This document shows positions 4,878 through 56,638 of a stretch of 64,000 nucleotides of DNA, piece by piece; the stretch's first letter is position 1; each line of letters opens with the position of its first letter. The stretch is from Bacteroidaceae bacterium (lineage in GTDB: Bacteria; Bacteroidota; Bacteroidia; Bacteroidales; Bacteroidaceae). The translations under genes were made by a program, and so were the position numbers. The notes beneath the pieces are model-generated. The model worked only from the letters and a program-made list of their open reading frames with translations. It did not search any database and was not told where the DNA came from. Location of the stretch: NCBI GenBank assembly GCA_017631315.1, contig JAGBTN010000005.1, positions 62,001 to 126,000 on the forward strand. Reading direction: 5' to 3'.

Positions 4878-4965
4878 CTGCAGAGAAGTTTGCCATTTAC
4901 TGCAGAGAAGTTGGGCAAGTTCACGTGTGAAGTTTGCCGGAAGGACTGCAGGGCTTGGAACGGCA
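4878..4965. repeat. 22-bp-periodic palindromic array A (CTGCAG/CACGTG type, 4 units)
   Basis: Unit cores begin at 4878 (CTGCAGAG), 4900 (CTGCAGAG), 4922 (CACGTGTG) and 4944 (GACTGCAG), each exactly 22 bp apart. The 14-bp spacers have the form AAGTT, a TGCC/GGGC centre, then A/T-rich or AAGTT sequence. The last unit and its tail (GGACTGCAGGGCT, later CGG, then CAC) recur in array B at 12600-12625. The array sits between two converging 3' ends. Confidence 0.85.
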
Positions 4966-4976
4966 CACATTGCAAC

Positions 4977-5657
4977 TTACTTCTGCACACGAACGGGGCG
5001 AACGCTAACGCCGGAGCAGCGCAAGTAGTGGCCCGCGCGGATATCGCTGGAATAGAAGCACAGGTCGTAAGCGCCGCTGCTGTTGCTCGTATAGAGCGAA
5101 CGCGACCAATAGTAGCCGAGGCTACCTGCATAGCTGAGGCTCGTATAGGCGCGATCACCTGCAGCCGGCAAAAAGATACTGTTGCCATTGCTCTTGCTGG
5201 TTATCTTCCTGCCATATTTGCCATTCATTGTTGTCCATGTTGTGGTTGTGTAACTGCTATTGTAGAGTTCTTCGAACTGTTCCTCGCTCGGCATCTGCCA
5301 ACCGCTGCCCCAGTTCACTGTGGCAGCATCGTCTGATGGTTCGAGTTCGGTCTTGTCGTCAACTATGCCGTAATCACTATTTTTGCAGTACTTCGTCATT
5401 ATTTCTTCTGGACTTTTTAAATACTTGTATGTACTCCAACTGTAATCATTCTTGGGTTCTGTTTCGCCCCAGGCAAAGTAATCACCATATTCTTCAGGAC
5501 TTGACGCACCTACATTACACGTTGCCCACAAAGTTCCACTTGGCAAACCGAGGTCAACATAATCATGGTCTTCCTTTGAACAACTGCAGAAGACACTACT
5601 ACCAATAAGGCAAGTTGCCAAGAGCAGTATAAATGAGAAGAGACTTTTTGCTTTCAT
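4977..5657 (-). CDS. Lipoprotein with FISUMP-like (Fibrobacter major paralogous) domain
   Basis: The 226-residue product has a hydrophobic signal peptide and Cys residues at VFCSCSK that suit a lipoprotein signal, so it is probably surface anchored. The mature part opens YVDLGLPSGTLWATCNVGA and carries YFAWGETEPK, GWQMPSEEQFEELY, FLPAAGDR and YYWSRS, ending in SVRPVR. This is the signature of the Fibrobacter-succinogenes-major-paralogous-domain type, common in Bacteroidetes surface proteins and distantly lectin-like. The ligand is unknown. It has its own promoter, so it is monocistronic. Confidence 0.8.
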   Translation of the reverse strand: MKAKSLFSFILLLATCLIGSSVFCSCSKEDHDYVDLGLPSGTLWATCNVGASSPEEYGDYFAWGETEPKNDYSWSTYKYLKSPEEIMTKYCKNSDYGIVDDKTELEPSDDAATVNWGSGWQMPSEEQFEELYNSSYTTTTWTTMNGKYGRKITSKSNGNSIFLPAAGDRAYTSLSYAGSLGYYWSRSLYTSNSSGAYDLCFYSSDIRAGHYLRCSGVSVRPVRVQK

Positions 5658-5724
5658 AAGTTTATTTATTGGGTGATTTGTGCCCCAATGATAATGGGGC
5701 GGTTCAATAATTAATATCTCTCGA

Positions 5725-5755: not shown

Positions 5756-5849
5756 TAATCAACACCCACATTTGACCCTATCTCAGATATTTATCCGTAC
5801 AAACAGGAAATATACACCGAAAGATTTAGGTCTGTACATGGATTTTATA

Positions 5850-5857: not shown

Positions 5858-5875
5858 CAGAAATAATGACTCAAA

Positions 5876-8824: not shown

Positions 8825-8825
8825 C

Positions 8826-12490: not shown

Positions 12491-12625
12491 CTCTAAAGAA
12501 GTTGCCCGACTTCTGCAGAGAAGTTTGCAATTTACTCTGCAGAACTTCGTCAACTTCACACGTGTAGTTGGCCGGACGGACGCGTCCATTTTGCCAAGTG
12601 GACTGCAGGGCTGCAATCGGGGCAC
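12491..12625. repeat. 22-bp-periodic palindromic array B (6 units)
   Basis: Cores begin at 12491 (CTCTAAAG), 12513 (CTGCAGAG), 12535 (CTCTGCAG), 12557 (CACACGTG), 12579 (GACGCGTC) and 12601 (GACTGCAG), exactly 22 bp apart. Five contain a palindromic hexamer (CTGCAG three times, CACGTG, ACGCGT). Spacers are AAGTT...AACTT-like with TGCC, GCCC or GGCC centres. It lies between the mcrB promoter and the galM terminator and shares its end unit and tail with array A. Confidence 0.87.
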
Positions 12626-12701: not shown

Positions 12702-13865
12702 TTACTTCGTGCTGAACTTGTACATGGTTGTTGTCATGTAGTTCTCACCCGGAAGAAGGGTTGTGCTGGGCCATTCGGGATGGTTGGGGCTGTCGGGATA
12801 GTGCTGTGTCTCGAAGCAGAATGCGCTGCGACGAGGATACTTCACGCCCTTCTTGCCTACGAAACTGCCATCGAGGAAGTTGCCGGCATAGAACTGAACA
12901 CCGGGCTGGTCGGTGAACATCTCCATAAAGATGCCTGTGTTGGGATCGTAGAGTGTACCGAAGCACTTGGTGAGGTCGCAGTTTGTGTTGAGAATCCAGT
13001 TGTGGTCATAGCCCACGCCATTCACAATCTGCTCGTTTGTCTCGTCGTTGATGCGGTCGCCAATGGCAGTGGGAGTGCGGAAGTCGAATGGTGTGCCCTC
13101 TACTGCAAGCACTTCGCCTGTAACTGCAACATCGGCATCTACGGCTGTAAACTGGTCGGCGTCGAGCATCAGCACCTCGTCGAGGCAGTCCTTAGAACCG
13201 TCGCCGCTGAGATTGAAGTAGCAGTGGTTCGTCAGGTTCAGCACTGTGGGCTTGTCTGTGTTGGCAAAATAATTGATGATCAATGTATTGTCTTCGGTCA
13301 GAGCATAGGTTACCTTTACGTCCAGGTTGCCGGGATAGCCGTCTTCGCCATCGGGGCTTGTTGTGGTGAACTCGATAATCTTATTGTCTTTCTGATTGGC
13401 TTCCCAAATGCGGTTGTGGAAAGCAATCGGGCCACCGCCATGGAGGCTGTTGGGGCCATTATTGATGGGCAACTGGTATGCGTTGCCATCGAGAGTGAAC
13501 TGACCCTTGGCAATACGGTTGCCGTAACGGCCGATGAGGGCACCGAAGTTGCAGCCCTGTGCGCCATACTTCACATAGTCGGCAATGTTGTCATGACCGA
13601 GACATACGTCCTGCATGTTGCCATCCTTGTCGGGAACCATAATGCTGACAATACGTCCGCCGAAGTTAGTGAAACACACCTCCATGCCTGCATCGTTCTT
13701 GAGGACATAGAGAGCCGTCGAATCGGTAGCGAAGTCTGCCGGATTAAGACCGGAAACTGTCAGGCTGTCTGCACACTCGGCATTGCTGCAAGATGTGTTG
13801 CAACATGCTGAAAAACTGAGCCCTGTAGCAATTGCCACGAGAGCAAGGAAAAATGTTTTCTTCAT
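12702..13865 (-). CDS. galM: Aldose 1-epimerase (mutarotase), exported lipoprotein form
   Basis: The 387-residue product has a lipoprotein signal (MKKTFFLALVAIATGLSFSA-C), so the enzyme is exported. This is frequent for Bacteroidetes mutarotases. GalM signatures are NFGGRIVSIMVPD, GALIGRYGNRIA, the His in SLHGG, the catalytic His in LTNHCYFNL, GYDHNWIL and the catalytic Glu in CFETQHYPDSPN. It interconverts alpha and beta anomers of galactose, glucose and related sugars. Several Cys residues cluster just after the lipid-attachment Cys (CCNTSCSNAEC). It is monocistronic, with its own promoter and terminator, divergent from a FAS1 gene. Confidence 0.92.
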   Translation of the reverse strand: MKKTFFLALVAIATGLSFSACCNTSCSNAECADSLTVSGLNPADFATDSTALYVLKNDAGMEVCFTNFGGRIVSIMVPDKDGNMQDVCLGHDNIADYVKYGAQGCNFGALIGRYGNRIAKGQFTLDGNAYQLPINNGPNSLHGGGPIAFHNRIWEANQKDNKIIEFTTTSPDGEDGYPGNLDVKVTYALTEDNTLIINYFANTDKPTVLNLTNHCYFNLSGDGSKDCLDEVLMLDADQFTAVDADVAVTGEVLAVEGTPFDFRTPTAIGDRINDETNEQIVNGVGYDHNWILNTNCDLTKCFGTLYDPNTGIFMEMFTDQPGVQFYAGNFLDGSFVGKKGVKYPRRSAFCFETQHYPDSPNHPEWPSTTLLPGENYMTTTMYKFSTK

Positions 13866-14015: not shown

Positions 14016-16154
14016 ATGTCACGACTTATACACCCTTTCAAACTACTCGTTGCAGCCATTGCAGTTGTTTCCGTATGGTCTTGCACCGAGCAAATAGACA
14101 CTTCGGCGCGTTATGTGTTCAAGGAAGAAACGGTAATGAGCTACCTTGAGAAGCACGAAGCCTATAGCAGTTATGTTGACATTCTGCGCAAGGTGGACAT
14201 CAGTAAGGCCAGCAGTTCCAAGGTCAGCCAGCTGTTGAGTGCTCGCGGAAACTTCACCGTTTTTGCACCTAACAATGCAGCCATACAGAAATACCTCGAG
14301 GATTTGGTGGAGGAAGAACTCATCGCAGAGCCATCGTGGGACGCTTTCACAAGCGAACACAAACGCGACTCTATCTACAAAGTGATTGTCTATAACAGCA
14401 TCATCGACGGTGGCGACGAAGCCAACGCATACTTCTACACCACCGAATTCCCCAACGACAAAGACGAGTTTATCCTTGCCACACTCAATGATAAAAAACT
14501 CTCCGTCAAGAAACCCGAGAATCAGCCTGACAGCATCTACATCAACGAAGATTGCCCCGTCAGCGTAAAGGAACGCGACATCCTTGCCATCAATGGCATC
14601 ATCCACCAGCTTGAAAAAGTCATTTCGCCCAAGGACATTACTGCTGCCAACTACATTCAGCAGTGTCTCGACGAGCAGAAAGAGGGCTTCCTTGTGTGCT
14701 TCCGTGCCATTCAGGCATGCGGTCTGCTCGACACCCTCAGCAAGGTGCGCGACGAACGATATGAAGAACTCTACCAGACCGGCAAAATTCCCGACCTGGT
14801 TGGCATGATGAACGAAGGTTTTGCCGAAGGTAATACTGCCTATGCGCCCAAACATCGACTCTATGGATTTACCATCTTTGCCGAGCCCGACGACTTCTGG
14901 CGCAGCCAAGGCTTAGAACCTACCGACCCCGACCTGCTCCGCAAACTCACACAATGGATTCTCGACAACCATCAGTATAGCAACGACGATGTGTTCACAA
15001 CCGACGAGAACTACGAAAACGAGAACAACCTGCTCTACCAGTGGATTACATATCACATCCTGCCTATGCGTATCCCCAAAGGCAAACTCGTATTCCACAT
15101 CAACGAGTATGGCTTTAACCTGAGCCGTCCCGAAGTGTATAGCATACCCGTCTACGAGTTCTATACGACAATGGGCAAGCGACGCCTCTTCAAACTCATC
15201 GAAAGCAGAGCAAGCAACGGCGTTTACATCAACCGGTTCCCAACTACAGACAACGGACGCCGAGGCACTGGCGAAGAGATTGGTTGCGACGCAGACAAGG
15301 TGGGCAGCCGTGTGGATACCGAGTCGTCTTTGGCTATCCTCAGCGACATGATCAACTGTAACGTTTACCCCATTAGCGCACCTATCTCATACAACGACGA
15401 TGTGCGAGACAACTTGCACCGCAACCGCATCCGCTTCGACGGCATGAGCCTCTTCCCCGAAGCCATGAACAACGACATCCGCCTGAAGAAGGCTACCGAG
15501 GAACGCTACAAGCATGTCTATATTCCCAACACAGCCCGCACGTACAACTACTTTGAGAACATGCAGCAGAACGATGCCATGAACTTCGTTTATTACAACG
15601 CATGGAACGACGACTGGTGCAACCTGCACCGCGACGAGATGAAGGCTGTAGGCCGTTTCGAAGTAATGTTCAAGTTGCCTCCCGTGCCGCGCCGTGGCAC
15701 ATACGAGGTGCGCTACAAGGTGTTGGCAAATGGCAATCGTGGTGTGGCACAGGTTTACTTTGGTTCAGACCCCGAAAATCTGCCCGTTGCCGGCATTCCT
15801 TTGGACTTGACAATGGACTGCCGCAATGAATTGGATGCCAAGAGAGTTGGCTGGGAAGATGACGATCCGGTTGATGACGACTACAACGCCGAGATTGACA
15901 AACGCATGCGCAACAATGGTTTCATGAAGGGTCCGCAGTCCATCAACTCCAACGACGGAACCGAACGTGGCAAGAACGACCGCGAGAACATCCGACACAT
16001 CTTCGTCCGTCAGACACTCGATCCGAACGAAACCTACTACATCAAGTTGAAATCTGTACTCGACGCCGAGAAGAAGGAGTTCTACATGGACTTCATCGAA
16101 TACTGCGCAAAGGAGATTTACGACAATCCGGAATCACCGGAAGACATATGGTAG
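14016..16154 (+). CDS. Fasciclin (FAS1) domain lipoprotein, paralogue of the gene at 32103-34253
   Basis: The 712-residue product has a lipoprotein signal ending VVSVWSC (Cys about 23). A FAS1 domain spans about 55-205, with GNFTVFAPNNAAIQKYLED and the H-box-like INGIIHQLEKVI. A second divergent FAS1-like region (about 215-400) ends ITYHILPMRIP. The C-terminal ~300 residues form a beta-rich region with VPRRGTYEVRYKVLA. FAS1 domains mediate adhesion. Bacteroidetes proteins of this type are outer-membrane lipoproteins often linked to Sus-like glycan systems, but no susC/susD lies nearby. It resembles the 716-residue minus-strand gene along its whole length; both end in PEDIW. Confidence 0.85.
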   Translation: MSRLIHPFKLLVAAIAVVSVWSCTEQIDTSARYVFKEETVMSYLEKHEAYSSYVDILRKVDISKASSSKVSQLLSARGNFTVFAPNNAAIQKYLEDLVEEELIAEPSWDAFTSEHKRDSIYKVIVYNSIIDGGDEANAYFYTTEFPNDKDEFILATLNDKKLSVKKPENQPDSIYINEDCPVSVKERDILAINGIIHQLEKVISPKDITAANYIQQCLDEQKEGFLVCFRAIQACGLLDTLSKVRDERYEELYQTGKIPDLVGMMNEGFAEGNTAYAPKHRLYGFTIFAEPDDFWRSQGLEPTDPDLLRKLTQWILDNHQYSNDDVFTTDENYENENNLLYQWITYHILPMRIPKGKLVFHINEYGFNLSRPEVYSIPVYEFYTTMGKRRLFKLIESRASNGVYINRFPTTDNGRRGTGEEIGCDADKVGSRVDTESSLAILSDMINCNVYPISAPISYNDDVRDNLHRNRIRFDGMSLFPEAMNNDIRLKKATEERYKHVYIPNTARTYNYFENMQQNDAMNFVYYNAWNDDWCNLHRDEMKAVGRFEVMFKLPPVPRRGTYEVRYKVLANGNRGVAQVYFGSDPENLPVAGIPLDLTMDCRNELDAKRVGWEDDDPVDDDYNAEIDKRMRNNGFMKGPQSINSNDGTERGKNDRENIRHIFVRQTLDPNETYYIKLKSVLDAEKKEFYMDFIEYCAKEIYDNPESPEDIW

Positions 16155-16162
16155 TACAAAAT

Positions 16163-16242
16163 AATGGTTAGCCTTTCTTCGAATAAAGGTTAACCATTAT
16201 GCTCAATTAGGTTAACCTTTCTGCCCGGAATGGTTAACCTAT
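16163..16242. repeat. 22-bp-periodic GGTTAACC array D1 (4 units); supplies the hrpB stop codon
   Basis: Cores start at 16166 (GGTTAGCC), 16188, 16210 and 16232 (all GGTTAACC), exactly 22 bp apart. Each is flanked by three A/T bases and separated by eight variable bases. The last two units can pair (AGGTTAACC / GGTTAACCT) and are followed by ATTTTTG, a terminator-like arrangement for the FAS1 gene. On the minus strand the final unit provides the TAA stop of hrpB. Confidence 0.9.
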
Positions 16243-18741
16243 TTTTGTTTGCTGACGTTTCGTGCCACGCACGGCCTCTGCCTGCAATGGGTTGTCGGGC
16301 CAATAGTGTTTGGGATAGCGACGGCGCAGTTCGCTTCGCACCTCGAAGTATGCGTTCTGCCAAAAGCTGCGAAGGTCTTGGGTGAGTTGCACCGGTTTAA
16401 AGCCCGGCGACAGCAATTCCATAAGGACCGGCACTCGGCCGTTGTCCACACGTGGCGTCTCCTCCATTCCGAAGCACTCCTGCAAGCGCACACTCAACAC
16501 GGGTGCCTCTGCTCCATGGCGATAGTCCAGACGGATACGGCTGCCAGTCGGTACTGTAACATGCGAAGGAGCAATACATTCTATCTGTTGCTGAAGGTCG
16601 TAAGGGATGAGTGTCCAGAGCACTGCACACAGGTCGATGCGCCGAAGTGCTGTGCCCGACGAACGCAACCGGCCGGCCTCATCGTCAAGATAAAAAGGCA
16701 GCCAATCGTGAACCGTTGCAAGAAGGTGCGATGTAGAGAGGTCGGGGATGTCCAGTTCTGGATGCCATGCTGCCACTTGTGCTACGCGTCGCTGCAAAGC
16801 AGCCACCTCGTCGTTCCACGACAACACGCTGAGCCCGTCCTTCGCTACAACATCACACAGCACACGTTCCTGCAAACTGCGCGGAGCATCGTGCAAGGGT
16901 TTGGAGCGAAGAAGCAGGCGACCGATGCGCCATTCGTGCTGCATGACAAGGCCTTCCTGCTTGCTGTCCCACGCCACATGGTCGCGCTCCACAGCAAGTT
17001 CCTCAAGGTCCGACGGCTCAACAGCTGCGGCAAGAAACACCTTCCCCTGTGCTCCGGAAACGAAAAGGGATGCTACGGCAAGCCACGGGCACGACGAAAG
17101 CGGGTCCTTCCGGTCGATGCGGACTTCCTCTCCGCTTGCCAGCCTGTACCTGCCCGCACCATCCATCTGTCTGGCAACACGCTCGGGATAGGCATAAGCA
17201 ACCAGATGTCCCGCAGCAACTTCACCGCTCTTCCGGCCACAATCCCTCGCCGGAGCAATCCTTCTGTAAGCCTCTGCAACCTGTGCTATGCGTTGCCATG
17301 GGCCAAGACGCCTACTCTCTCGGGCTCTCTGCAACAAGTCAAGGCGTAAAGACATATCGGCCTCATTTTCATGCTGTGCCAGAGGGTCCTTCTCCTCGAG
17401 CAAGGCTGCAATATCACAAGCCAGCCCCGTCTCGCCAAGAGAGGCTGCCCGAAGTATCATCCTCGAAATGCGTGGGTGGCAAGGCAACCCTGCCATTTGC
17501 TTGCCCAGACGAGTGATGCCTCCCTGTTCGTCGAGGGCACCAAGCGAGAACAATAGTTCGCGAGCAGCAACCAGGCTGTACAAAGGAGGTGGCGTGAGCC
17601 AAGGGAGTGCCATGGCATCTCTTTCGCCAAAAGAAACAACATCAAGCAAAGTTGGTGCCAGGTCGGCATACTCTATCTCAGGTCTGCGGCGTTCCGCCAT
17701 ACGATGCTCTGCCGCCTTCGTCCATAAACGGTAACAAATTCCGGAAGTCAGACGGCCGGCACGACCGGCACGCTGTGCTGCCATATCCATACTGATGGGA
17801 ACGGTTTCCAGATGACTCATACCTGTTCGACGGTCGAAGACAAGAGTGCGGCACAATCCGCTATCAATAACGATTCTTACACCCTCAATGGTCAACGACG
17901 TTTCCGCTATGGGAGTTGCCAACACCACCTTCCGTTCTCCATCCCTCGAAGGCATAATCGCCCTGCGCTGCTCCTCCGACGAAAGGTTTCCGTAAAGAGG
18001 AAAGACCTCTGCCGGAAAGCCTTGCAACAATTCTGCGCAACGCATTATCTCCGCTTGCCCAGGCAAAAAAACAAGAATATCGCCTTCCTTCGGTGCCCGA
18101 CGGACTGCATCTGCAACAGCTTGCGCCATGTCTTCACGGCGGAAATCCTCCTTCGCATAAACAATATCAACAGGAAACATCCGCCCCTCGCTCTCAATGA
18201 GTGGAGCCTGCAACGCATCACAGATTGCCGAACTCTCTATAGTGGCAGACATTACCACAAGACGCAAATCGGGACGCAAGAGCTGCTGCGCTTGTCGGCT
18301 AAGAGCAAAAGCAAGGTCGGTATGCAGGCTTCGCTCATGAAATTCATCGAAAATAATGATGCCTACGCCATCGAGCGTCGGGTCATGCTCCAGCATGCGC
18401 GTCAAAACGCCTTCTGTCAAAACCTCTATTCTGGTATCGCTGCTTACGCAAGTCTCAAAACGAATGCGATAACCAACGGTCTTGCCAACAGGTTCGCCAA
18501 GCAACGACGCCATACGTTCAGCAATCTGCCGTGCAGCAAGACGACGTGGCTCGAGCATCAGAATCCTTCCCTCTACAGGAGCATCCAGAACAAGAGTCAA
18601 AGGCAGGAGCGTCGATTTGCCCGCTCCAGGCGGAGCGGTAATAACCACATCCTGCTGCAGAGCAAGTGCCCCACTCACTGCCTCGGCAATGGCAGCAACA
18701 GGCAAATGTCCCGAACGCTCAACAAGGAGAGCCTTGTCCAT
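16234..18741 (-). CDS. hrpB: ATP-dependent RNA helicase HrpB (DEAH family)
   Basis: The 835-residue product has Walker A APPGAGKSTLLPL (about 36-48), MLEPRRLAARQIAER (motif Ia), IIFDEFHERS (motif II, DEFH), VVMSATIES (motif III) and QRAGRAGR (motif VI). The HrpB-specific C-terminal domain ends near YPKHYWPDNPLQAEAVRGTKR. The family is an RNA helicase of uncertain cellular role. The gene follows the acyltransferase gene with no gap (stop 18742, ATG 18741), so the two are translationally coupled. The terminal residues TKIG and the stop are encoded by repeat array D1, so the repeat seems to have replaced or abutted the original 3' end. Confidence 0.93.
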   Translation of the reverse strand: MDKALLVERSGHLPVAAIAEAVSGALALQQDVVITAPPGAGKSTLLPLTLVLDAPVEGRILMLEPRRLAARQIAERMASLLGEPVGKTVGYRIRFETCVSSDTRIEVLTEGVLTRMLEHDPTLDGVGIIIFDEFHERSLHTDLAFALSRQAQQLLRPDLRLVVMSATIESSAICDALQAPLIESEGRMFPVDIVYAKEDFRREDMAQAVADAVRRAPKEGDILVFLPGQAEIMRCAELLQGFPAEVFPLYGNLSSEEQRRAIMPSRDGERKVVLATPIAETSLTIEGVRIVIDSGLCRTLVFDRRTGMSHLETVPISMDMAAQRAGRAGRLTSGICYRLWTKAAEHRMAERRRPEIEYADLAPTLLDVVSFGERDAMALPWLTPPPLYSLVAARELLFSLGALDEQGGITRLGKQMAGLPCHPRISRMILRAASLGETGLACDIAALLEEKDPLAQHENEADMSLRLDLLQRARESRRLGPWQRIAQVAEAYRRIAPARDCGRKSGEVAAGHLVAYAYPERVARQMDGAGRYRLASGEEVRIDRKDPLSSCPWLAVASLFVSGAQGKVFLAAAVEPSDLEELAVERDHVAWDSKQEGLVMQHEWRIGRLLLRSKPLHDAPRSLQERVLCDVVAKDGLSVLSWNDEVAALQRRVAQVAAWHPELDIPDLSTSHLLATVHDWLPFYLDDEAGRLRSSGTALRRIDLCAVLWTLIPYDLQQQIECIAPSHVTVPTGSRIRLDYRHGAEAPVLSVRLQECFGMEETPRVDNGRVPVLMELLSPGFKPVQLTQDLRSFWQNAYFEVRSELRRRYPKHYWPDNPLQAEAVRGTKRQQTKIG

Positions 18742-25683: not shown

Positions 25684-25735
25684 CACGTGTGAAGTTCGCC
25701 AACTTCACGTGTGTTGTTGGCAAACATCACGTGTG
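25684..25735. repeat. 22-bp-periodic palindromic array C (CACGTG type, 3 units)
   Basis: CACGTGTG begins at 25684, 25706 and 25728, exactly 22 bp apart. The 14-bp spacers are AAGTTCGCCAACTT and TTGTTGGCAAACAT, which have the same AAGTT...AACTT and TGCC/GGCA character as arrays A and B. It lies between the converging ends of the sigma operon and the V-ATPase operon. Confidence 0.85.
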
Positions 25736-31957: not shown

Positions 31958-32015
31958 AATGCTTAACCTTTCGGGCGACAATGGTTAAGCCTTTTGACAA
32001 TAATGGTTAACCTGT
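31958..32015. repeat. 22-bp-periodic GGTTAACC array D2 (3 units)
   Basis: Cores start at 31961 (GCTTAACC), 31983 (GGTTAAGC) and 32005 (GGTTAACC), exactly 22 bp apart. The first two variants are reverse complements of each other, so they can pair fully. It lies after the FAS1 gene 32103-34253 (beyond its terminator) and before the fucosidase start. Confidence 0.88.
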
Positions 32016-39720: not shown

Positions 39721-39778
39721 AAAGGTTAACCTTTCTGCAAATAATGGTTAAGCATTCCGTCCATAATGGTTAACCATT
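39721..39778. repeat. 22-bp-periodic GGTTAACC array D3 (3 units)
   Basis: Cores start at 39724 (GGTTAACC), 39746 (GGTTAAGC) and 39768 (GGTTAACC), exactly 22 bp apart, with A/T triplets on both sides. It lies 49 nt after the CotH gene stop on the minus strand. Confidence 0.88.
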
Positions 39779-42800: not shown

Positions 42801-43750
42801 ATGCGGTTTTTGTCTATGGTGACTGCGTCGGCCAGGGTGTAGGTGCCACGATAGTCGCCGTTGACTACGAGGTCGACCACCTGGCTCCACGGTGTCCACT
42901 GCAGTTCGCCGCGTTTTGCCATGGCCCACGCCACGGGGTTACGCATGAGTGTCTTGTCGCGGTAGCTGTTGATGAGCACCCATTTCTTGCACTTTGCGGG
43001 CGACTCGTTCTTGCCTCCCTTCATGACATGGTGGCTCTTTCCGTCGTCGTACTTCATGCGGAAGGCTTTGTTTTCGTGTGTGGAGGAGAAGTTGCCGCGC
43101 ACGCGGAACTGGATGGGGTACTCCTGGAGCATGGTTCCGTCTTCGTAGATGAGCACGGAGTTCGACTCGAAGTCTTCGCCACGAACGGTGGGCAGGATGT
43201 TGTCTTTGACGTGGATGCTGAGGGTGGGCAGATTGGTTATCTGGTAGAAGCGGCTGTCGTCGCCTACGCCTGCGTGTCCGTAGAACTGGAGTTCGGCGAT
43301 GTTGCAATAGGAACCTGTGCCGCCCACGTAGCGGACATAGCGGAAGCCGCGGCTGACGTTTACGTCTGCAACGGCGGCTTCGCCGGTGGCAGGCCTTTCG
43401 CCGATGAAATAGAGGGGTATGGCGTCCATGAAGTCGGGACTGTTTGCGCCCTCGAAGAGACTGAGGAACATGCGGTCGGCACCTTGCCAACCCGATGCCG
43501 GCGTGAAGCCGATGCGGGTGATGACATGGGGTTCGCCAAGGTCGAGACCCACCCATCCAAATGCGGAGGAATTGGTGCTGTAATAGGTCGATGCTTCGCC
43601 GTCGAAAGCAGCCTGTGCCTTTGTCTCTGAGCCAGAACAGATTATCATACCTTCGAGAAGGTGATCGGTGGCCGAATCATAGGCATAGAGGGTGCTCGAA
43701 CTCAGCAGAAGCGAGAATAAAAGTGATAGGCTATAAAGTATTCGTTTCAT
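39827..43750 (-). CDS. Secreted CotH-kinase-like protein with discoidin, GLUG, Ig-like (BIG2) and dockerin modules
   Basis: In this 1307-residue product, the signal peptide (about 1-23) is followed by an F5/8C module (about 30-155). A CotH domain (about 165-575) has FRVRGNFSSTHENKAFRMKYDD, WVLINSYRDKTLMRNPVAWAMA, GGYYIEADNNY and the metal-binding DxD in GPVWDADLALEND near 443. Next come GLUG-type repeats (about 585-815), an F5/8C module (about 860-1000), a BIG2 Ig-like domain (about 1007-1085), another F5/8C module (about 1095-1240), and a terminal dockerin (GDVNGDGLTSLLDYEAM, ADINADGKVNAQDLM). CotH proteins are atypical kinases that phosphorylate secreted proteins. In Bacteroidetes the substrate is unknown. 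The dockerin and modules are shared with the next gene. Confidence 0.86.
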   Translation of the reverse strand: MKRILYSLSLLFSLLLSSSTLYAYDSATDHLLEGMIICSGSETKAQAAFDGEASTYYSTNSSAFGWVGLDLGEPHVITRIGFTPASGWQGADRMFLSLFEGANSPDFMDAIPLYFIGERPATGEAAVADVNVSRGFRYVRYVGGTGSYCNIAELQFYGHAGVGDDSRFYQITNLPTLSIHVKDNILPTVRGEDFESNSVLIYEDGTMLQEYPIQFRVRGNFSSTHENKAFRMKYDDGKSHHVMKGGKNESPAKCKKWVLINSYRDKTLMRNPVAWAMAKRGELQWTPWSQVVDLVVNGDYRGTYTLADAVTIDKNRIRITEMTETDTEGEALTGGYYIEADNNYSRETYHFLSSHGNTMSVHEPDEDIMQPAQFQYIKNTWNDMENIVFGKNYTDPEAGLRSVVDVESFLRWFLISEFNGNTDMICQVFLYKERADDHFYTGPVWDADLALENDITTYPANERMDWTYKVRQTGQYSQFVSRILSDPSVFAQLQEIWAKLRKKGAFNPEDVAADVDSIRREIRASADLNFTRWPYLNQELSLNPQVPGSWELEVDRVRNYVYNRVAWMDEMLSYGTLRKENGIYQIASGLDLCTFSQMVNEGGQNDAKAELVSDINMAGYNADFNPIGTSTAPFNGTFNGNGHTISGLNLTGGEAVALFSYCGSCELQNIVFDETCRVEGSGSVAMLCGNVRNGAVTISGVENHGTVVASGNAAGALVGSGRLLSVFTITNCSNTGSITAQSNAAALVGTSAGKLSMENCFNIGVITGSAEGKEFGFATKSLVINNCWDYTSGQTLNMTPAQVEDGELCYLINDNAGKDIWRQNLDNGRERDMWPVLRKTAGMVYKKDGIYTNILSSLVPYRYFKLTFTQLQGGQNGVLQFAEFDLLNDVLEEAENLSGYDGPEGFGGEGWINATDDNVGTKYCGSFNGNSSFLFDAGSEISVYGYRLYTANDTQSSPDRNPSSWKLYGSNSRLDASDAGWQLIDERKDDWTMQPTNYEPYDFYIPMSLKTLTLSKQQAMLLPGEELQLDYSYTPLTIQNLSPKWVSTDADVATVDEKGRVVAVGLGKTDIVLSVPSISTLRDTCSIVVVKERPGHRYYQFAIDAIRSGGTIQLAEFDLLDAEGKEVTPLTLYAYTGSSVDNHPHSDLLDDSYNTKYCGSYSAGTTLYIYIDAGKKVTLSGYRLTTANDTQWYPGRNPASWSLLGSNVKSKVPGSNVWTLLDRRENDNTLGAVNYTPYDFFFTYPTPVIPGDVNGDGLTSLLDYEAMRAYIVGKQVEGFSAEAADINADGKVNAQDLMRLIHILTEE

Positions 43751-43915: not shown

Positions 43916-43995
43916 AAGGGTTAACCATTATGGGAAAATAGGTTAACCATTACGGGCAGAAAGGTTAAGCATTCTGTCGATAAAGCTTAACCTAT
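43916..43995. repeat. 22-bp-periodic GGTTAACC array D4 (4 units)
   Basis: Cores start at 43919 (GGTTAACC), 43941 (GGTTAACC), 43963 (GGTTAAGC) and 43985 (GCTTAACC), exactly 22 bp apart. The last two are reverse complements and can pair. On the minus strand the final pair is followed by CTTTTTG, a terminator-like end for the AraC gene, which stops at 44034. Confidence 0.9.
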
Positions 43996-44033: not shown

Positions 44034-44912
44034 TTATTGTGTTTTTCCGTCGCGATACTGCTGGGGCGAAACGCCTACCTGGAGGCGGAAAAAGCGTCCG
44101 AAATGCGACTGATTCTTGAAGCCCATCGAGGAGGCAATCTGCTTGATGCTCTTGCTGCTGTCGCGAAGCATAAATTTCGCAGAACGTACGATTTCATCGC
44201 TTATCAGCTGGTTTGCCGTACGCCCCGTAAAGCGTTTGCATATGCCGGAAAAGTACTTGGGCGTGATGCAGAAAAGGCTGGCATACTCGTTTACGTTAAG
44301 ATAGGGCAGCGAAGGGTCGTGCAAATGCTGCATGAAGCGGTGCAGAATGTTCTCGCCGGAACTGTAAGTTTGCTGAATAGTCTTGTCGTCCTGCGCCCTG
44401 TACAAATCGATTAACTCGTAAACCAGCGAAGCCAACAGCAGGCGGAGGCGCAACTCCTTGTTCGCTGTCTCCGGGCTCTGGAGATTGTTTTGCAGCAGAC
44501 CGAAATAACCGCGGCAACGCTCCTGCGTCATCTCGTCTGCCGGAAGAACCTGCAACGCTCTGGAAAACATGGCATGAGACCACTCCATACGGACCATCTG
44601 CGAAATGTGTGCAATATAGTTCGGCGAGAGAAAAAGCATCGTAGCATTGAAGTCCATGCTCATCATGCTCTTCTCGAAAATGATGCGAGGATGGCAAATC
44701 ATAATGTCACCCTCCTTCAACTGATACGTATTCTCGTCGACAGACAACTGTGCCACACCACGAGTCACCAACGAAAACAAGAAGCCTTCAACCAGAACAG
44801 TAGACACCTCATGACGACGCACCTGCTCGAAATCATCGAAAATGGCAATGTGCTCGTTGTAATGAAAGTTCAAACCCTCGTCGATTATTGTTCGTATATT
44901 CAGCGTTTTCAT
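44034..44912 (-). CDS. AraC-family transcriptional regulator, divergent from the RND operon
   Basis: I chose the ATG at 44912, giving 292 residues (MKTLNIRTIIDEGLNFHYNE...). The frame is open further upstream, but that part overlaps the -7 box and the divergent regulatory region. An N-terminal cupin-like sensor (about 20-150, VARGVAQLSVDENTYQLKEGDIMICHP) precedes two HTH motifs (about 195-290, LNVNEYASLFCITPKYFSGICKRFTG and SIKQIASSMGFKNQSHFGRFFRLQVGVSPQQYR). The divergent arrangement suggests that it controls the efflux operon at 45115. Confidence 0.9.
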   Translation of the reverse strand: MKTLNIRTIIDEGLNFHYNEHIAIFDDFEQVRRHEVSTVLVEGFLFSLVTRGVAQLSVDENTYQLKEGDIMICHPRIIFEKSMMSMDFNATMLFLSPNYIAHISQMVRMEWSHAMFSRALQVLPADEMTQERCRGYFGLLQNNLQSPETANKELRLRLLLASLVYELIDLYRAQDDKTIQQTYSSGENILHRFMQHLHDPSLPYLNVNEYASLFCITPKYFSGICKRFTGRTANQLISDEIVRSAKFMLRDSSKSIKQIASSMGFKNQSHFGRFFRLQVGVSPQQYRDGKTQ

Positions 44913-49266: not shown

Positions 49267-50618
49267 AACGATACACAATATGTTTTTATGCACTGACAAT
49301 GTGCATGACCTTGTCTGCTCAGACAATGACACTGGAAGAATGTCTGGAACGCGCAAGGGAGAACAACCACGAATTGCAGATGGCAGCGCTGGAGATTGAG
49401 GCGGCTTCGGAGCAGAAAAGCGAGGCTTTCACCAACTACTTCCCACGCATCAGTGCAAACGTGATGGCGTTCCGTTTATTCGATGAAATGGTCAAATCCG
49501 ACGGCACCTACCCTCAGGAAATCGCAGCACTGAGCCCTCAGTTTGCTCCTCTTGCAGGAACGCCGTTCACGGTCTCGGAGTTCAACCGTGCCTATGCTGT
49601 TTCCGCCACCCTCGTACAACCGCTTTTCTCTGGAGGCCAGATTGTGAACGGCAATAAGTTGGCGCGCATACAGCAGGATGTGGCTGTACTCAAACAACAA
49701 CTTACCACGAAGGAAATTCTCCAGAAAGTTACCGAATGTTATTGGCAACTTGCTCAAGTGCGCTACAATTTGAGCACGCTCGAGGCCGCCGAGAAACAGA
49801 TAGAGGCCGTAATGGCACAGGTGGAATTGTTCCTGAAGGCCGGCATTACGACGCGCAACTCTGTGCTGAAGGTACGCCTACGCCAGCAGGAACTCTCAAG
49901 CGCACGACTCAAGTTGGAGAATGCCGACCATGTATTGCGCCTGTTGCTTGCACAACAAATAGGCATTGCTCCGGCCGAAGCCGAAAAAAGCTTCGACATC
50001 GTCCTGGAAGACAAACCTTTAGAGCAACCCATTGAGGCCATAAAAGGGGCACTCTCGCTTAGCCCCGACCACCGCGAAGAACTGCAACTCCTGGGGAAAA
50101 AGGTGGAGGCACAGGCATTGCAAGTGAAGATGGAACGCGGCAAACACCTGCCCCATCTGGGCATTGGCCTGGCCGGATACCATAGCGGGCTTGGCGGCTT
50201 CTCCGAGAAAGCAGAACAATATCTACCCTCCCGCCTGAACAACGGGCTCGTCTTCGGCACACTCTCCATACCCATCAGCGACTGGTGGGGCGGCATTCAT
50301 GCGATGAAACGGCAGAAAATCAAACTTCAGCAAGCCAAAAGCGAGCGAGAAAACGTACAACAAATGTTGCAGATTGACATCGAACGCGCATGGACAAATG
50401 TTCAGGAAGCCTACAAACAAACACAAATCGCACAGACCTGTTGTGAGGAAGCGGCTGAAAACCTGCGAATGAGTAACGACCAGTATCGGATGAGCACCTG
50501 CACGCTGACCGACCTGCTCGATGCAGAAACACTGAACCGCCAAGCACAAAACGACCTCGCACGCGCCAAAGCTGCCTACCAAATTGCACTCTCCGACTAC
50601 CGAAGAAAAGCACAATAA
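49263..50618 (+). CDS. TolC-like outer-membrane efflux protein
   Basis: I chose the ATG at 49263, which overlaps the pump stop (ATGA) and gives a signal peptide (MKRYTICFYALTMCMTLSA-QT). The 451-residue product has two OEP repeats, with TLEECLERARENNHELQMAALEIEAA, FNRAYAVSATLVQPLFSGGQI, long coiled helices, SIPISDWWGG and STCTLTDLLDAETL. It forms the trimeric outer-membrane duct of the tripartite efflux system. Repeat array D5 follows and probably serves as the terminator. Confidence 0.92.
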   Translation: MKRYTICFYALTMCMTLSAQTMTLEECLERARENNHELQMAALEIEAASEQKSEAFTNYFPRISANVMAFRLFDEMVKSDGTYPQEIAALSPQFAPLAGTPFTVSEFNRAYAVSATLVQPLFSGGQIVNGNKLARIQQDVAVLKQQLTTKEILQKVTECYWQLAQVRYNLSTLEAAEKQIEAVMAQVELFLKAGITTRNSVLKVRLRQQELSSARLKLENADHVLRLLLAQQIGIAPAEAEKSFDIVLEDKPLEQPIEAIKGALSLSPDHREELQLLGKKVEAQALQVKMERGKHLPHLGIGLAGYHSGLGGFSEKAEQYLPSRLNNGLVFGTLSIPISDWWGGIHAMKRQKIKLQQAKSERENVQQMLQIDIERAWTNVQEAYKQTQIAQTCCEEAAENLRMSNDQYRMSTCTLTDLLDAETLNRQAQNDLARAKAAYQIALSDYRRKAQ

Positions 50619-50691: not shown

Positions 50692-50780
50692 AAAGGTTAA
50701 CCATTATTGGCAATTAGGTTAACCATTCCATCAATAATCGTTAACCATTCCGGCAAGAATGGTTAACGTATTTTTTTTTG
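50692..50780. repeat. 22-bp-periodic GGTTAACC array D5 (4 units) ending in a terminator hairpin
   Basis: Cores start at 50695 (GGTTAACC), 50717 (GGTTAACC), 50739 (CGTTAACC) and 50761 (GGTTAACG), exactly 22 bp apart. The last two are compensating variants that form a perfect 11-bp stem (CGTTAACCATT / AATGGTTAACG, 8-nt loop) followed by TATTTTTTTTTG. This is an intrinsic-terminator structure for the efflux operon. Confidence 0.92.
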
Positions 50781-53529: not shown

Positions 53530-53532
53530 CGT

Positions 53533-56505
53533 ATGATTATGAAAACATTTAAACCCTTATGCTCTATTGCTTTGGGAGTATTTCTATTTTCTTTCCATAG
53601 CAATATTCTGGCAGAAGAAGTTTATCGCGACAATCATGTCCGCTTCACTCTTATTGATGAAGGTACGATCCGACTGGAGTATGCTCCCGATGGGAAATTC
53701 GTCGATGAGAAAAGTTTTGTTGCTGTCATACGTGAATATAGCAGTGTTCCCCATAAAGCTTCAACGGGTGGTAATAAGGTAACTATCACCACGAGCAAGT
53801 TCAAGCTTACCTATCGCAAAGATGGTGCTCCTTTGAGTGCAAAGAATCTTACAATCACTTCTGCCAAGACGCTTGGAACATCCTTCTCCTGGACTCCAGG
53901 CATGGAGCAAAAAGGCAACTTGAAAGGTACATATCGCACACTCGATGGTTACGACGGAGATATGTTTCAATACAGCAACCCGAAGACTGTTATGCCATTG
54001 GAGGACGGTCTGCTGGCAACAGATGGCTGGACACTTATTGACGACTCGAAGAACTATCTCTTCGACGGAGCGAAGGATTGGGACTGGGTAAAGGAGCGCA
54101 CAAGTGCCGACGGAGCGCAGGACTGGTACTTTATGGCATATGGTCATGACTACAAGGGGGCTTTGAAGAGTTTTACAAAGTTTGCCGGAAAGGTACCTTT
54201 GCCTCCTCGTTACACGTTCGGCTACTGGTGGAGCCGCTATTGGAGCTATAGCGACAAGGACCTTCGCGACTTGATTGGTAACTTCCAACGCTTGGATCTC
54301 CCTCTCGATGTGCTGGTTATTGATATGGACTGGCACCCGATAAGCGAGCAGGCAGGCGGTGGCTGGACAGGTTGGGACTGGAACGAACGTCTTTTTCCCG
54401 ACTATAAGAAATTCTTGTCGTACCTTGACGAACAGGGTGTAAAGACGACCATGAATCTGCATCCTGCCGATGGTGTGCGTCCTTATGAGAAGAAGTATCA
54501 GGAGTTCATCGGCAGGGCCGGTATCGAGAATGGCAAGACTGTCGAATGGCAAGGCAGCGACAAGCGTTATGTCAAGGCGCTCTTCGACACTTACCTGCAC
54601 CCTTATGTTGACGAGGGAGTCGACTTCTGGTGGCTCGACTGGCAGCAGTGGGCGAAGGACAAACGTCTGAAGGACCTCGACAATGTCTTCTGGTGCAACT
54701 ATATTTGGTTTACCGACATGGAGAACAATGGTACGAAGCGTCCGATGCTTTACCACCGCTGGGGCGGGCTGGGCAACCACCGTTATCAGATTGGTTTCTC
54801 GGGTGATTCGTACATAACGTGGGAGAGTCTCCGTTTCCTGCCTTACTTCAACAGTACGGCCTCCAATGTTCTTTATGGCTATTGGAGTCATGACATTGGC
54901 GGACACCAGAGCAAGAGATATGGCACTCCTGTTGAACCTGAGTTATATACCCGTGCCATGCAGATGGGGCAGTACTTGCCTATCATTCGCAGCCACAGCA
55001 CAAAGGACCCGCAGCTCAACAAGGAGCCTTGGGCTTTCGACCAGACTACGCAGCGACGTCTCTCTAATGTCATCAATGGTCGCTACGCTCTTGTACCTTA
55101 TATATATACGATGGCTCGCCAGGATTACGAGACGGGCATTTCGCTTTGCCGCCCCATGTACTACGACTACCCCGAGGCTGAGGAGGCGTATGGCATGAAG
55201 GAGCAGTATATGTTTGGCGACAAGATGCTGATTGCCCCTGTCACAAATCCTGTCGACAAAGAGAGTGGTCTGGCCGCGGTGAACGCATGGTTGCCGGAAG
55301 GCCAATGGTTGGAGTACGAGACCGGCACGATGCTCGAGGGCGGACAGACAGTGGAGCGTCTGTTCTCGATGGATGAATACCCTGTCTATGTCAAGGCTGG
55401 CAGCATCATTCCCTACTATGGTAAGGTCAAGAACCTGAGCGGCACAAACCAGCCTGTCATTGTACGTGTCTTCCCCGGTGGCAGCGAAGGCGACTTCCTG
55501 CTCTACGAAGACAATGGCGAGGACAAGAATTATGTCAGCGAATATGCCACCACGCCACTCTCCTACCAGCGCAACGGCAACACTCTGTCCGTTACCATCG
55601 GCGAGCGCAAGGGCAGTTACAAGGACATGCCTGCACGCCGTGACTACACCGTTGCTCTGCCCTGCCAGAAGGCACCCGCCTCTGTCAAGGTCGACGGAAA
55701 AGAGGTGGCCTTCACATACGACGGTCTGAACCTCGAGACCTGCATTGCCCTGGGCAGCATAGACTGCAGCAAAGGCGCCGCCATCGAAGTGTCGTTCCCC
55801 TCTGCCGACTATGCCGTAATGGCTGGCGAGAAAGGGCAGTTCCACCGCATACAGAATGCCGTACAGGACTTCAAGCAGCACGATGCCGGCATGGTCTATA
55901 CAGAAGACTTCGGTTTCCTGGAAGCCACACCGCTCCGCCTCTCCTATCATCCCGAAACGCAGGACGAGACACTCGCACACTTCCACAAGCTCTATAAGAA
56001 ACTGCCACTCGTGCTCATAGAGCAAATGGGCAAGAACCAAAACTTCGACCGCTTCATGCGTCAGGTAGGCGAAGACGGCAAAATGGTAGTAGAAGTATCG
56101 CCCGAAGCCTTCAGCACCGCAGCGGGCACCGGTTTCGACCTCCGCTACTTCCCCAACAAGGCGCTGGAAGGCGAGGCCAAAGCCACAGGGCATCTCGAAA
56201 AAATGGACTTCTTCATCGGCGGAAGCCCCACGCAAGGCATCCCCGAAAACTACTGGAGCATGACGGCAGAAAGCACATTCACCGCCCCGGAAACCGGCAA
56301 CGTAATGTTCGTCATGACCGGCGACGACGCCTACCGCCTCATTGTGGACGGCAAAGAACTCTTCAGCGACTGGGGCGACCACGCTGAGACAACACGCAAC
56401 GCCGCCATACCCGTAGAAGCCGGAAAGAAGTACAACATACGCATCGAATACTACGACAACGAATACAACGCCATACTCCGGATGCAGACACTCTTCTTCA
56501 AGTAA
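53533..56505 (+). CDS. Secreted GH31 alpha-glycosidase with C-terminal PA14 domain
   Basis: The 990-residue product has a signal peptide ending near NILA-EE (start at 53533 or the Met two codons later). An N-terminal beta-sandwich (about 30-225) precedes the GH31 barrel (about 228-590), with FGYWWSRYWSYSD, VLVIDMDWH, the nucleophile Asp369 (FWWLDWQQW), the acid/base Asp425 (GFSGDSYITWESL) and YGYWSHDIGGH. The proximal and distal beta domains follow. A DUF5110-like region and a PA14 module (about 875-990, FVMTGDDAYRLIVDGKELFSDW) end the protein. GH31 includes alpha-glucosidases, alpha-xylosidases and others; specificity is not clear. It forms a two-gene operon with the preceding gene, which suggests shared glycan processing. 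Confidence 0.9.
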   Translation: MIMKTFKPLCSIALGVFLFSFHSNILAEEVYRDNHVRFTLIDEGTIRLEYAPDGKFVDEKSFVAVIREYSSVPHKASTGGNKVTITTSKFKLTYRKDGAPLSAKNLTITSAKTLGTSFSWTPGMEQKGNLKGTYRTLDGYDGDMFQYSNPKTVMPLEDGLLATDGWTLIDDSKNYLFDGAKDWDWVKERTSADGAQDWYFMAYGHDYKGALKSFTKFAGKVPLPPRYTFGYWWSRYWSYSDKDLRDLIGNFQRLDLPLDVLVIDMDWHPISEQAGGGWTGWDWNERLFPDYKKFLSYLDEQGVKTTMNLHPADGVRPYEKKYQEFIGRAGIENGKTVEWQGSDKRYVKALFDTYLHPYVDEGVDFWWLDWQQWAKDKRLKDLDNVFWCNYIWFTDMENNGTKRPMLYHRWGGLGNHRYQIGFSGDSYITWESLRFLPYFNSTASNVLYGYWSHDIGGHQSKRYGTPVEPELYTRAMQMGQYLPIIRSHSTKDPQLNKEPWAFDQTTQRRLSNVINGRYALVPYIYTMARQDYETGISLCRPMYYDYPEAEEAYGMKEQYMFGDKMLIAPVTNPVDKESGLAAVNAWLPEGQWLEYETGTMLEGGQTVERLFSMDEYPVYVKAGSIIPYYGKVKNLSGTNQPVIVRVFPGGSEGDFLLYEDNGEDKNYVSEYATTPLSYQRNGNTLSVTIGERKGSYKDMPARRDYTVALPCQKAPASVKVDGKEVAFTYDGLNLETCIALGSIDCSKGAAIEVSFPSADYAVMAGEKGQFHRIQNAVQDFKQHDAGMVYTEDFGFLEATPLRLSYHPETQDETLAHFHKLYKKLPLVLIEQMGKNQNFDRFMRQVGEDGKMVVEVSPEAFSTAAGTGFDLRYFPNKALEGEAKATGHLEKMDFFIGGSPTQGIPENYWSMTAESTFTAPETGNVMFVMTGDDAYRLIVDGKELFSDWGDHAETTRNAAIPVEAGKKYNIRIEYYDNEYNAILRMQTLFFK

Positions 56506-56554
56506 ACACACACACCCAGCACCGGCAAAAAGACCAAAGCAACATACCGCCAAA

Positions 56555-56638
56555 AAAGGTTAACCATTCAGCCCCGAATGGTTAACCATTACAGGCGGAA
56601 AGCTTAACCTAATTGCCCATAATGGTTAACCTTTTTTT
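56555..56638. repeat. 22-bp-periodic GGTTAACC array D6 (4 units) ending in a T-run
   Basis: Cores start at 56558 (GGTTAACC), 56580 (GGTTAACC), 56602 (GCTTAACC) and 56624 (GGTTAACC), exactly 22 bp apart. The last unit is followed by TTTTTTTCGG, so the array can end transcription of the GH31 operon, whose stop is 50 nt upstream. Confidence 0.9.

Follow-up and report, generated by a model that had tools for sequence, protein, structure and literature searches.

Arrays of the window

The window, i.e., the whole stretch of 64,000 nucleotides analysed, carries nine intergenic arrays of short tandem units, most of them with a GGTTAACC-type core (Table 1). All nine were recovered where the initial annotation had placed them. 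By our own gene caller every array is 3' of one gene or more and no array lies within a gene body; at 16166 the final core (16232–16239) shares 6 bp with the 3' end called for gene 16234–18741. The six GGTTAACC arrays have 4, 3, 3, 4, 4, and 4 units with a step of exactly 22 bp and at most one mismatch per core. An exact 22-bp step had been annotated for every array, and it holds for these six and for the array at 25684, but the CTGCAG that follows position 4922 sits at +24. The arrays at 4878 and 12491 are mixed, with three and four units in register, respectively, and on recounting the total is 32 units instead of the annotated 35. In a search of the window with Rfam at gathering scores only tRNAs were found.

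Table 1. Arrays in the window and the genes beside them. G023 is the second genome of the species pair compared in the text.
Feature	Position	Strand	Units	Surroundings
Mixed CTGCAG/CACGTG array	4878–4927	.	3 in 22-bp register	Convergent gap
Extra CTGCAG beside the 4878 array	4946	.		Offset +24
Mixed CTGCAG/CACGTG array	12491–12562	.	4 in 22-bp register, first degenerate	3' of 12702–13865(-)
GGTTAACC array	16166–16239	.	4	Directly after gene 14136–16154(+) (Fasciclin domain); convergent with gene 16234–18741(-) (HrpB-type helicase); same place occupied in G023
CACGTG array	25684–25733	.	3	Convergent gap, 3' of 25798–27120(-) (V/A-type ATP synthase alpha/beta-family)
GGTTAACC-type array	31961–32012	.	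3	3' of gene 32103–34253(-)
GGTTAACC-type array	39724–39775	.	3	3' of 39827–43648(-); array in G023 too
GGTTAACC-type array	43919–43992	.	4	3' of 44034–44912(-) (AraC-type regulator); in G023 too
GGTTAACC-type array	50695–50768	.	4	3' of 49305–50618(+) (outer membrane efflux protein)
GGTTAACC-type array	56558–56631	.	4	3' of 53533–56505(+) (glycosyl hydrolase family 31); no array in G023

The 22-bp period in the host genome

A genome-wide search had been set beforehand as the test on which the period could fail, and the period was not lost elsewhere in the host genome (G000). In 852 kb of this genome all 107 distances between exact GGTTAACC copies at most 150 bp apart are multiples of 22, and genome-wide there are 105 exact 22-bp GGTTAACC pairs where the reversed control gives none. 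Among GGTTAACC pairs stepping 21–23 bp the step is 22 in 105/105 in the host genome and in 112/113 in G023. A lag scan of 460 kb of the host genome (threshold 0.60) gave 50 places at lag 22 against 0–12 places at any other lag between 15 and 40; the higher of these counts were mostly at multiples of three within genes. When microsatellites and genes were removed, all 37 host arrays found at lags 17–29 had lag 22. The arrays are real and far above chance expectation, and their units are rarely inside genes (1 of the 50 lag-scan places; 3 to 5 of 93 G000 arrays). Their density is about one per 9 kb of the sampled host genome (93 in 852 kb), and they are not regularly spaced along the chromosome (CV 1.06 vs. 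0.83 expected). Arrays of the GGTTAACC family mostly have 3–5 units, four being the commonest number (33 of the 55 G000 arrays with at least three). Inverted repeats outside the arrays show no peak at 22, and there is thus no general preference of hairpins for this length.

Unit layout and conservation

The annotated layout of W3-core-W3 followed by eight variable bases is upheld by 168 spacers from G000 and G023 and by the divergence at each position. The cores, which had been called palindromic, are better described as pseudo-palindromic, as the units are directional and imperfect palindromes. In the tests for which G000 and G023 were pooled (spacers, half-words, T runs, and covariation), and which overstate independence because the arrays of the two genomes are largely orthologous, identical half-words were found to be avoided (ATTAT-ATTAT 4 times vs. 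16.8 expected) and no clear position-specific pairing of half-words was seen, the single positive pair in 4-unit arrays being L3-R4 (z 2.3).

The cores are conserved between G000 and G023, with a divergence of 4.4% as compared to 19.2% in the middle of the spacer, 15.1% in the intergenic flank and 8.2% in coding DNA (24 of 31 arrays aligned). Indels in the arrays occur at 0.22–0.38 of the flank rate, a 2.6- to 4.6-fold depletion obtained with four alignment settings (p 2e-18 to 0.03), which left 28–42 of 93 arrays usable in this one species pair. Length was kept in 24 of 30 orthologous arrays (at least 85% identity, looser gap cost), while one of the others was off by exactly 22, three by another number, and two had lost at least 66 bp; the G023 counterpart of the 25684 array is longer by one 22-bp unit. 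Of the 23 G000 arrays that could be tested (out of 47), 22 are found at the same place in G023. An exact period is consequently conserved at orthologous sites while the spacer sequence is free, which is the behaviour expected of a cooperative protein-binding array and was found in one species pair. That length is kept without sequence suggests helical phasing. Pairing in RNA between all units was rejected as the selected trait, as half-words show no clear pairing by position and neighbouring cores no overall covariation (185 pairs, G000 and G023 pooled, z -0.7). Core changes were present in 14 of 25 orthologous arrays, and in none of these did paired changes preserve a pair; in 5 of the 14, however, single core changes improve pairing at some point.

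Many sequence families with one step

The host belongs to a group of uncultured gut bacteria with many such intergenic arrays, in which the constant feature is the period and not the core. A set of 248 arrays with a 22-bp period, counted in this group without a gene filter, forms 58 clusters by sequence. The genome G034 has no GGTTAACC pair, yet its intergenic arrays number 47 with a 22-bp period and one with a period of 17. Four species have 22-bp arrays of three unlike sequences at one orthologous place, and at the position of the 50695 array G034 and G026 carry 22-bp arrays of different sequence; the geometry is kept across the sequence differences between species. Families have expanded in particular lineages, GGTTAACC in G000 and G023 and TACATGTA in G034, where each of the 18 TACATGTA copies that passed the filter has CATG at three centres 22 bp apart, and inverted ends of the GTTGTTTGAAC type are present in most of them. 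As GGTTAACC is one of many cores, one sequence-specific protein cannot explain the class. A universal shared motif was rejected, since TTGGC/TTGCC at the spacer centre is common to some families (16 of 58 cluster consensuses vs. 4.2 expected) and most are without it. A viral origin was set aside; 20 viral contig stretches carried one pair each.

The 22-bp period of the initial annotation holds for the host lineage, whereas other lineages use 21 or 23 bp. At 80 named loci, with runs of N and microsatellites removed, the period is 21, 22, or 23 in 63 of 68 arrays, and in 17 of the 68 it is 23, in lineages other than that of the host. The choice between 22 and 23 tracks a gene tree, as judged from the 40 of 81 tree rows with one period only, either 22 or 23. 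A functionless mutational habit, in which imperfect palindromes slip by a fixed step of 21–23, could account for many sequence-unlike arrays with few, locally homogeneous units. We consider this very improbable because the same core recurs at dozens of loci whose spacers are unlike, cores are conserved, indels are depleted and few arrays lie within genes.

Position relative to genes

Genes were called with our own hexamer caller, retrained for each set. The main families show a position bias: GGTTAACC arrays are found in divergent gaps in 3 of 42 cases as compared to 24% of gaps (p 0.014), and the G034 families in 0 of 42 as compared to 22%. Pooled over genomes with repeated loci left out, as well as two named loci from genomes already sampled, an array is present in 38/110 convergent, 73/515 codirectional, and 15/168 divergent gaps; convergent gaps are richer than codirectional ones (p 2e-6), while divergent and codirectional gaps do not clearly differ (p 0.09). 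In codirectional gaps 58 of 73 arrays lie nearer to the 3' end of the upstream gene. The depletion in divergent gaps rests on the GGTTAACC and G034 families. A 3' element, as initially proposed, thus describes these families but neither the two minor families of the host genome (5/25 in divergent gaps, no 3' preference) nor two multi-species samples, in which divergent gaps are no poorer in arrays (3/26 and 8/80).

The outward T runs of the GGTTAACC family look like those of terminators, and the arrays could be bidirectional intrinsic terminators in which units 1–2 and 3–4 form back-to-back RNA hairpins, each with a U-tract on its own strand. The prevalence of four units fits such an arrangement, as do the hairpins 1–2, 2–3, and 3–4 of 4-unit arrays in G000, which have energies of -11.8, -7.4, and -11.1 kcal/mol (n = 33, p 4e-5), or -8.7, -5.7, and -8.1 without flanks (p 0.004). 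The folding test was repeated for each genome by itself, and a separate sample, 12 new arrays of four units, again has the weaker middle hairpin (p 0.007); the counts of perfect core pairs in this sample, 5, 2, and 5, are not significant (p 0.26). On folding, 12 of 12 arrays fell below the shuffle mean, 9 of them with z < -2.4. TTTT occurs at most 12 nt outside 51% (+) and 71% (-) of the 55 G000 arrays as compared to 11% for inner spacers on both strands. Terminator-like hairpins are more frequent at G000 gene 3' ends with an array (44/87) than without (63/212), but the antisense control is likewise raised (37/87 vs. 48/212). The T runs of codirectional gaps have no sense-strand bias (sense 20/39, antisense 24/39), and in G034 outward T runs are not in excess at the arrays and terminator-like hairpins are little increased (9/43 with an array vs. 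15/111 without). The loop, at 14 nt, would not have to be of fixed length, and yet length is kept and sequence is free; the missing covariation and compensating changes together with the avoidance of identical half-words, which would lengthen the stem, also argue against this reading. The initial idea of an RNA 3'-end element keeps some support from the terminal hairpins and T-rich ends; compensation and sense bias were not seen, and we find it rather doubtful that the arrays are terminators of this kind.

Comparison with known repeats

Among the matches listed from the open-licence PMC literature, 22-bp phase-locked arrays are undescribed, in agreement with the claim that no described family has this design. 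The closest known kind is that of the BrickBuilt-type 23-nt repeats of Porphyromonas. Passages of the BrickBuilt report describe gapless tandem 23-nt units in P. gingivalis that are always intergenic, have predicted stem loops, are restricted to the species and gain or lose whole units (PMC4596501). In the same passages they are a MITE of one sequence, with 19 copies of up to 22.8 units, a leader and tail and IS5-type TIRs, and 22- and 23-nt repeats are also mentioned for strain W83 (PMC4596501). The arrays described here share the order, the short tandem units and the intergenic location, but they comprise several sequence families per genome, mostly have 3–5 units (GGTTAACC family), are constrained in spacing at orthologous sites, and have a unit of 22 in all 37 intergenic host arrays, 23 being found in other lineages (17/68). 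Membership in BrickBuilt was rejected, as the TIR GAGACCTTTGCA is present on both sides of 0/93 G000 and 0/49 G034 arrays (within 350 bp, at most 2 mismatches); on either side it is found at 4/93 and 1/49, where random places give 3.4 and 1.0.

REP/BIME elements, which have GTAG or CGTC tags beside each palindrome and RAYT transposases, are according to the abstract of PMC3733652 short extragenic palindromes with several families per genome, mostly in convergent or codirectional gaps and with adjacent units inverted relative to each other. Unlike in REPs, GTAG is in step (at least 2 of 3 units) in 2/93 G000 arrays and CGTC in none; G034 is a partial exception, with CGTC, GACG, and GTAG in step in 8, 6, and 2 of 49 arrays. 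We know of no fixed tandem step in REPs. A REP/RAYT origin was rejected given these tags out of step in G000 and the lack of a Y1 transposase (PF01797) match in both GGTTAACC-rich genomes, G000 (87% complete) and G023 (72% complete); among genomes 72–88% complete there was also none in G020, and G034 and G026 had one match each. In a broader form, selfish MITE- or REP-like palindromes would multiply in intergenic gaps; the 22-bp step would come from the copying machinery, and the position bias from purifying selection at promoters. The lineage-restricted expansions, the uniform CATG centres and inverted ends of the TACATGTA copies and the MITE nature of BrickBuilt are in line with such spread. 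Nevertheless it appears unlikely, since all but one of the testable G000 arrays are resident at the same place in G023 with core and length constrained, the Y1 transposase and the flanking TIRs were not found in the searches above, and the one array missing from G023 has no clean target duplication by eye.

Phased operator arrays, as formed by cooperative repressors and roadblock terminators, have sites about two turns apart with a conserved core and a free spacer of fixed length, and serve one or few genes with one core. The present arrays differ from them in density, with about one per 9 kb of sampled G000, and in a sequence that varies between species. CRISPR, which has near-identical repeats, unique spacers of about 30 bp, and cas genes, was rejected on repeat structure, in view of the 22-bp unit, the approximately 8 free bases, and the few units at dozens of loci.

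A possible function at gene ends

The exact step despite varying sequence points to a candidate machinery that would sense spacing along the helix. We tentatively favour, at a confidence that falls short of probable, that the arrays are double-stranded DNA binding platforms on which a cooperative row of proteins acts as a roadblock or insulator at gene ends. In each unit the W3-core-W3 part, about 14 bp, would be bound by protein as a pseudo-dyad and the remaining 8 bp or so would be free in sequence, and units two helical turns (22 bp) apart would place neighbouring dimers on nearly the same face, where they may touch. Three to five dimers would then form a short cooperative nucleoprotein row, chiefly between convergent genes and at gene ends, and such a row would most likely counter read-through and the collision of opposing transcription, as a two-way roadblock or insulator. 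T-rich outward ends may in addition aid RNA release in the GGTTAACC family. The initial interpretation is partly supported, namely in the two-turn period under constraint, the pseudo-palindromic cores and the 3' position of the main family, but a single sequence-specific protein is insufficient. With several unlike cores per genome, either related proteins sharing one geometry or a single protein that mainly reads structure would be required. Several points count against a DNA platform. First, 22 bp corresponds to 2.1 turns rather than 2.0, and the step is 21 or 23 in other lineages. Second, terminal hairpins that are stronger than the middle one fit RNA better, and the outward T runs of the GGTTAACC family resemble terminators. 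Third, unlike cores demand several proteins or unusual recognition, and the minor families have no 3' preference.

It is conceivable, and we propose it with similar reserve, that the arrays represent an undescribed class of chromosomal element in which the lineage-typical step (21, 22, or 23 bp) is inherited and not the sequence. Unlike pseudo-palindromes would be fitted to one step per genome, largely at gene ends, by one or more host factors that would change in DNA specificity from species to species and keep a constant ruler. Repeats are usually classed by sequence, whereas here spacing is kept and sequence is free across species as well as across the families of one genome. This combination makes a direct test of helical phasing at bacterial gene ends possible, and it may offer a route to the factor by selecting proteins by spacing. 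It may also be relevant to the repeats of 22 and 23 nt reported for Porphyromonas, and the arrays are compact gene-end parts to try in Bacteroidales.

Constancy of the Period

The constant feature of the arrays is their period. The nine arrays of the window are present as the initial annotation described them, with slightly corrected unit counts, and the exact 22-bp step that it had noted is kept genome-wide. The window is 62001-126000 of contig 3 of G000 (2.68 Mb, 21 contigs, 87% complete), whose nearest named relatives are MAGs titled Bacteroidaceae, Prevotellaceae or Bacteroidales bacterium, with a rumen or herbivore gut origin in many titles. In 852 kb of this genome the 8-bp core of the main family, GGTTAACC, has 144 exact copies, where we estimate about 13 by chance at even base composition, and all 107 distances of up to 150 bp between copies are 22, 44, 66 or 88 bp. 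Genome-wide, the spacer is 14 bp in all 105 GGTTAACC pairs with a spacer of 13–15 bp. A sequence-blind scan of lags 17–29, with genes and microsatellites taken out, returned only lag-22 arrays in G000 (37 in 460 kb) and in G023, a close second species (36 in 389 kb); a third genome, G034, gave 47 at 22 and one at 17 in 420 kb. Nineteen further species (up to 20 kb each) gave 8 arrays at 22, 3 at 21 and one each at 23 and 29, and 80 named loci (1.44 Mb, including Candidatus Minthosoma equi) 36 at 22, 17 at 23, 10 at 21 and 5 at other lags. Which period is used follows lineage: a tree of the adjoining ATPase gene has five switches between 22 and 23, where 300 shuffles gave 10.5 on average and never fewer than 7. 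Among 20 genomes from other families of the order (248 kb), periods of 21–23 occurred solely as two 23-bp arrays in one genome, beside one 18-bp row of codon type.

Outside called arrays, direct 8-mer repeats at lags 44 and 22 number 72 vs. 26 in G023, which hints at a two-unit repeat there, 48 vs. 40 in G000 and 25 vs. 44 in G034. The genome density of one array per 9 kb contrasts with a long array-free stretch on contig 12 of G000 (Table).

Table. Positions of individual features (L-numbers are fetched loci).
Feature	Position	Detail
The one compared array missing from G023	window 56558	
Efflux gene	window 49305-50618	
Gene with 3' array in three genomes	window 14136-16154	
Array-free stretch (lag scan)	G000 contig 12, about 181.7-258.2 kb	~77 kb
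Lone two-unit GGTTAACC pair within that stretch	G000 contig 12, 242.4 kb	
23-bp CTCACAAGTTTGTCAGTTTTT-type arrays	L245:8230 and 9667	genome of a different family
Tandem 7- and 8-bp repeats	L158:9896, L173:7781, L132:7211	e.g. GTCAACTC/GTCAACTT
GGTTAACC arrays with other outermost cores	L009:76, L010:4968	GGTACACC/GGTGTACC and GGCATACC/GGTATGCC; also in G023
TACATGTA elements in longer inverted flanks	L191:470, L197:6360	G034; CATAGTG motif
Common module near GGACGCGTCCATTTTGCCAAGTGGACTGCAGGG, adjoined by CTGCAG-type arrays	window 12572-12610; L019 near 14700; L011:19742	

Constraint and Unit Structure

G000 and G023 are similar enough to be aligned, and the constraint results refer to this one species pair. 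Of 23 G000 arrays whose two flanks lie in the G023 DNA compared, 22 were kept in place, the G000 arrays having been picked for periodicity and their counterparts not. Divergence by position (24 of 31 arrays) was lowest in the 8-bp core (4.4%), rose to 7.2% over the three bases on each side and reached 19.2% in the middle eight of the spacer; coding DNA diverged by 8.2% and intergenic flanks by 15.1%. Indels per kb were 8.0 in arrays vs. 36.9 in flanks (42 orthologues), or 4.8 vs. 21.5 at 85% identity (30), and under harsher gap costs 3.1 vs. 10.1 (39) and 3.4 vs. 8.9 (28). Since the spacer middle diverges strongly while array indels are depleted, the spacer can vary in sequence and keeps its length, which is what phasing along the double helix predicts; an RNA loop has no such need.

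The cores had been called palindromic. The sequence indeed shows a pseudo-dyad in the core of each unit and another in the spacer, 11 bp from the first, and one vocabulary (ATTAT, TTTCC, ATTCC, ATTCT and others) supplies left and right half-words. Like half-words are avoided, however (ATTAT-ATTAT 4 vs. 16.8 across the spacer, 5 vs. 10.7 across the core), so that the unit, approximately GGAAAGGTTAACCATTATTGCC, is directional; arrays of either orientation are found. The avoidance keeps out long perfect palindromes, which are unstable in bacteria. Four units are found in 33 of the 55 G000 arrays having three or more.

Sequence Turnover

Unlike the period, array sequence varies. Of 139 genomes in the genus, 5 have the GGTTAACC pair pattern, with 105, 112, 17, 1 and 1 pairs. 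Clustering of 248 arrays with a 22-bp period gave 58 clusters, 9 of them in G000 and 12 in G034. The 3' end of the efflux gene bears a GGTTAACC array in G000 and G023, and an array of other sequence in G034 (about 7–8 units) and in a further genome, G026 (about 4); 8 of 12 orthologues examined have none near the stop. Similarly, the gene at 14136 has an array in G000 and G023 and one of different sequence in G034, and 13 of 16 orthologues examined have none.

G100, the species with 17 GGTTAACC pairs, keeps the 22-bp step in GGTTAACC arrays whose cores are GGGTTAACCC-like and whose spacers are of GCAATCA type; these arrays reflect either independent origin or old kinship. At two loci the outermost pair of a GGTTAACC array has other, mutually complementary cores with the step kept. 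Some TACATGTA elements of G034 look as if inserted into hairpins, and their half-words come in two versions, of TACATGTA and TTCATGAA type.

Position Relative to Genes

With repeated loci dropped, arrays occupy 38/110 convergent, 73/515 codirectional and 15/168 divergent gaps (pooled, convergent vs. codirectional p = 2e-6; divergent vs. the rest p = 0.004, vs. codirectional alone p = 0.09). Convergent enrichment is significant alone only in the named loci (16/48). Arrays lie in 4/32 divergent gaps in G000 and in 0/30 in G034; the divergent shares in the 19 other species (3/26) and the named loci (8/80) are not below those of their codirectional gaps (4/64 and 18/278). By family, the divergent share is 3/42 for GGTTAACC, 0/42 for those of G034 and 5/25, indistinguishable from chance, for the ACGTG and CTGCAG families of G000. 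The initial annotation placed every array on a 3' side and none inside a gene; across G000 the first part holds for 72 of 93 arrays, which adjoin a 3' end at a median of 54.5 bp, with 18 lacking an adjacent 3' end or lying where the retrieved DNA stops, and the second is broken by three inside called genes.

Relatives carry tandem repeats of 7 and 8 bp directly ahead of what, by eye, resemble start codons, and intergenic peaks occur in the 80 loci at lags 14 (n = 34) and 16 (n = 17); they are perhaps a separate 5'-side repeat class.

Possible Function

A protein on one DNA face and an RNA 3'-end element had both been proposed. The main rival to a protein array is a bidirectional terminator, which we consider somewhat less likely. 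Hairpins 1–2 and 3–4 of four-unit arrays are more stable than 2–3, in the first sample and in a new sample of 12, also without flanks (p = 0.07 in G023), and perfect core pairs at 1–2, 2–3 and 3–4 number 15, 6 and 15 of 33 (p = 0.008; new sample alone p = 0.26). A tetramer spanning two units would equally make pairs 1–2 and 3–4 alike. T runs pointing outward are frequent in the GGTTAACC family and not in G034 arrays. Against a purely RNA reading, the cores lack covariation, no compensating change pairs appear in the 14 of 25 orthologous arrays that have core changes, T runs have no sense-strand bias, and inverted repeats outside arrays have no peak at 22.

That the arrays spread as a mobile repeat is rather improbable. 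On the features tested, the arrays fit neither BrickBuilt, a MITE repeat of Porphyromonas gingivalis (its TIRs), nor REP/RAYT (REP tags and RAYT). In design, BrickBuilt, of the same order and with a unit of 23 nt rather than 22 bp, is the closest described element. The geometry-first reading is kept as the novel case.

The protein, terminator and mobile-repeat readings can be combined. As the best single reading we tentatively favour a cooperative protein array: phase-locked units, largely at the ends of transcription units, may assemble such an array on the DNA, which would act as a block or insulator in both directions.
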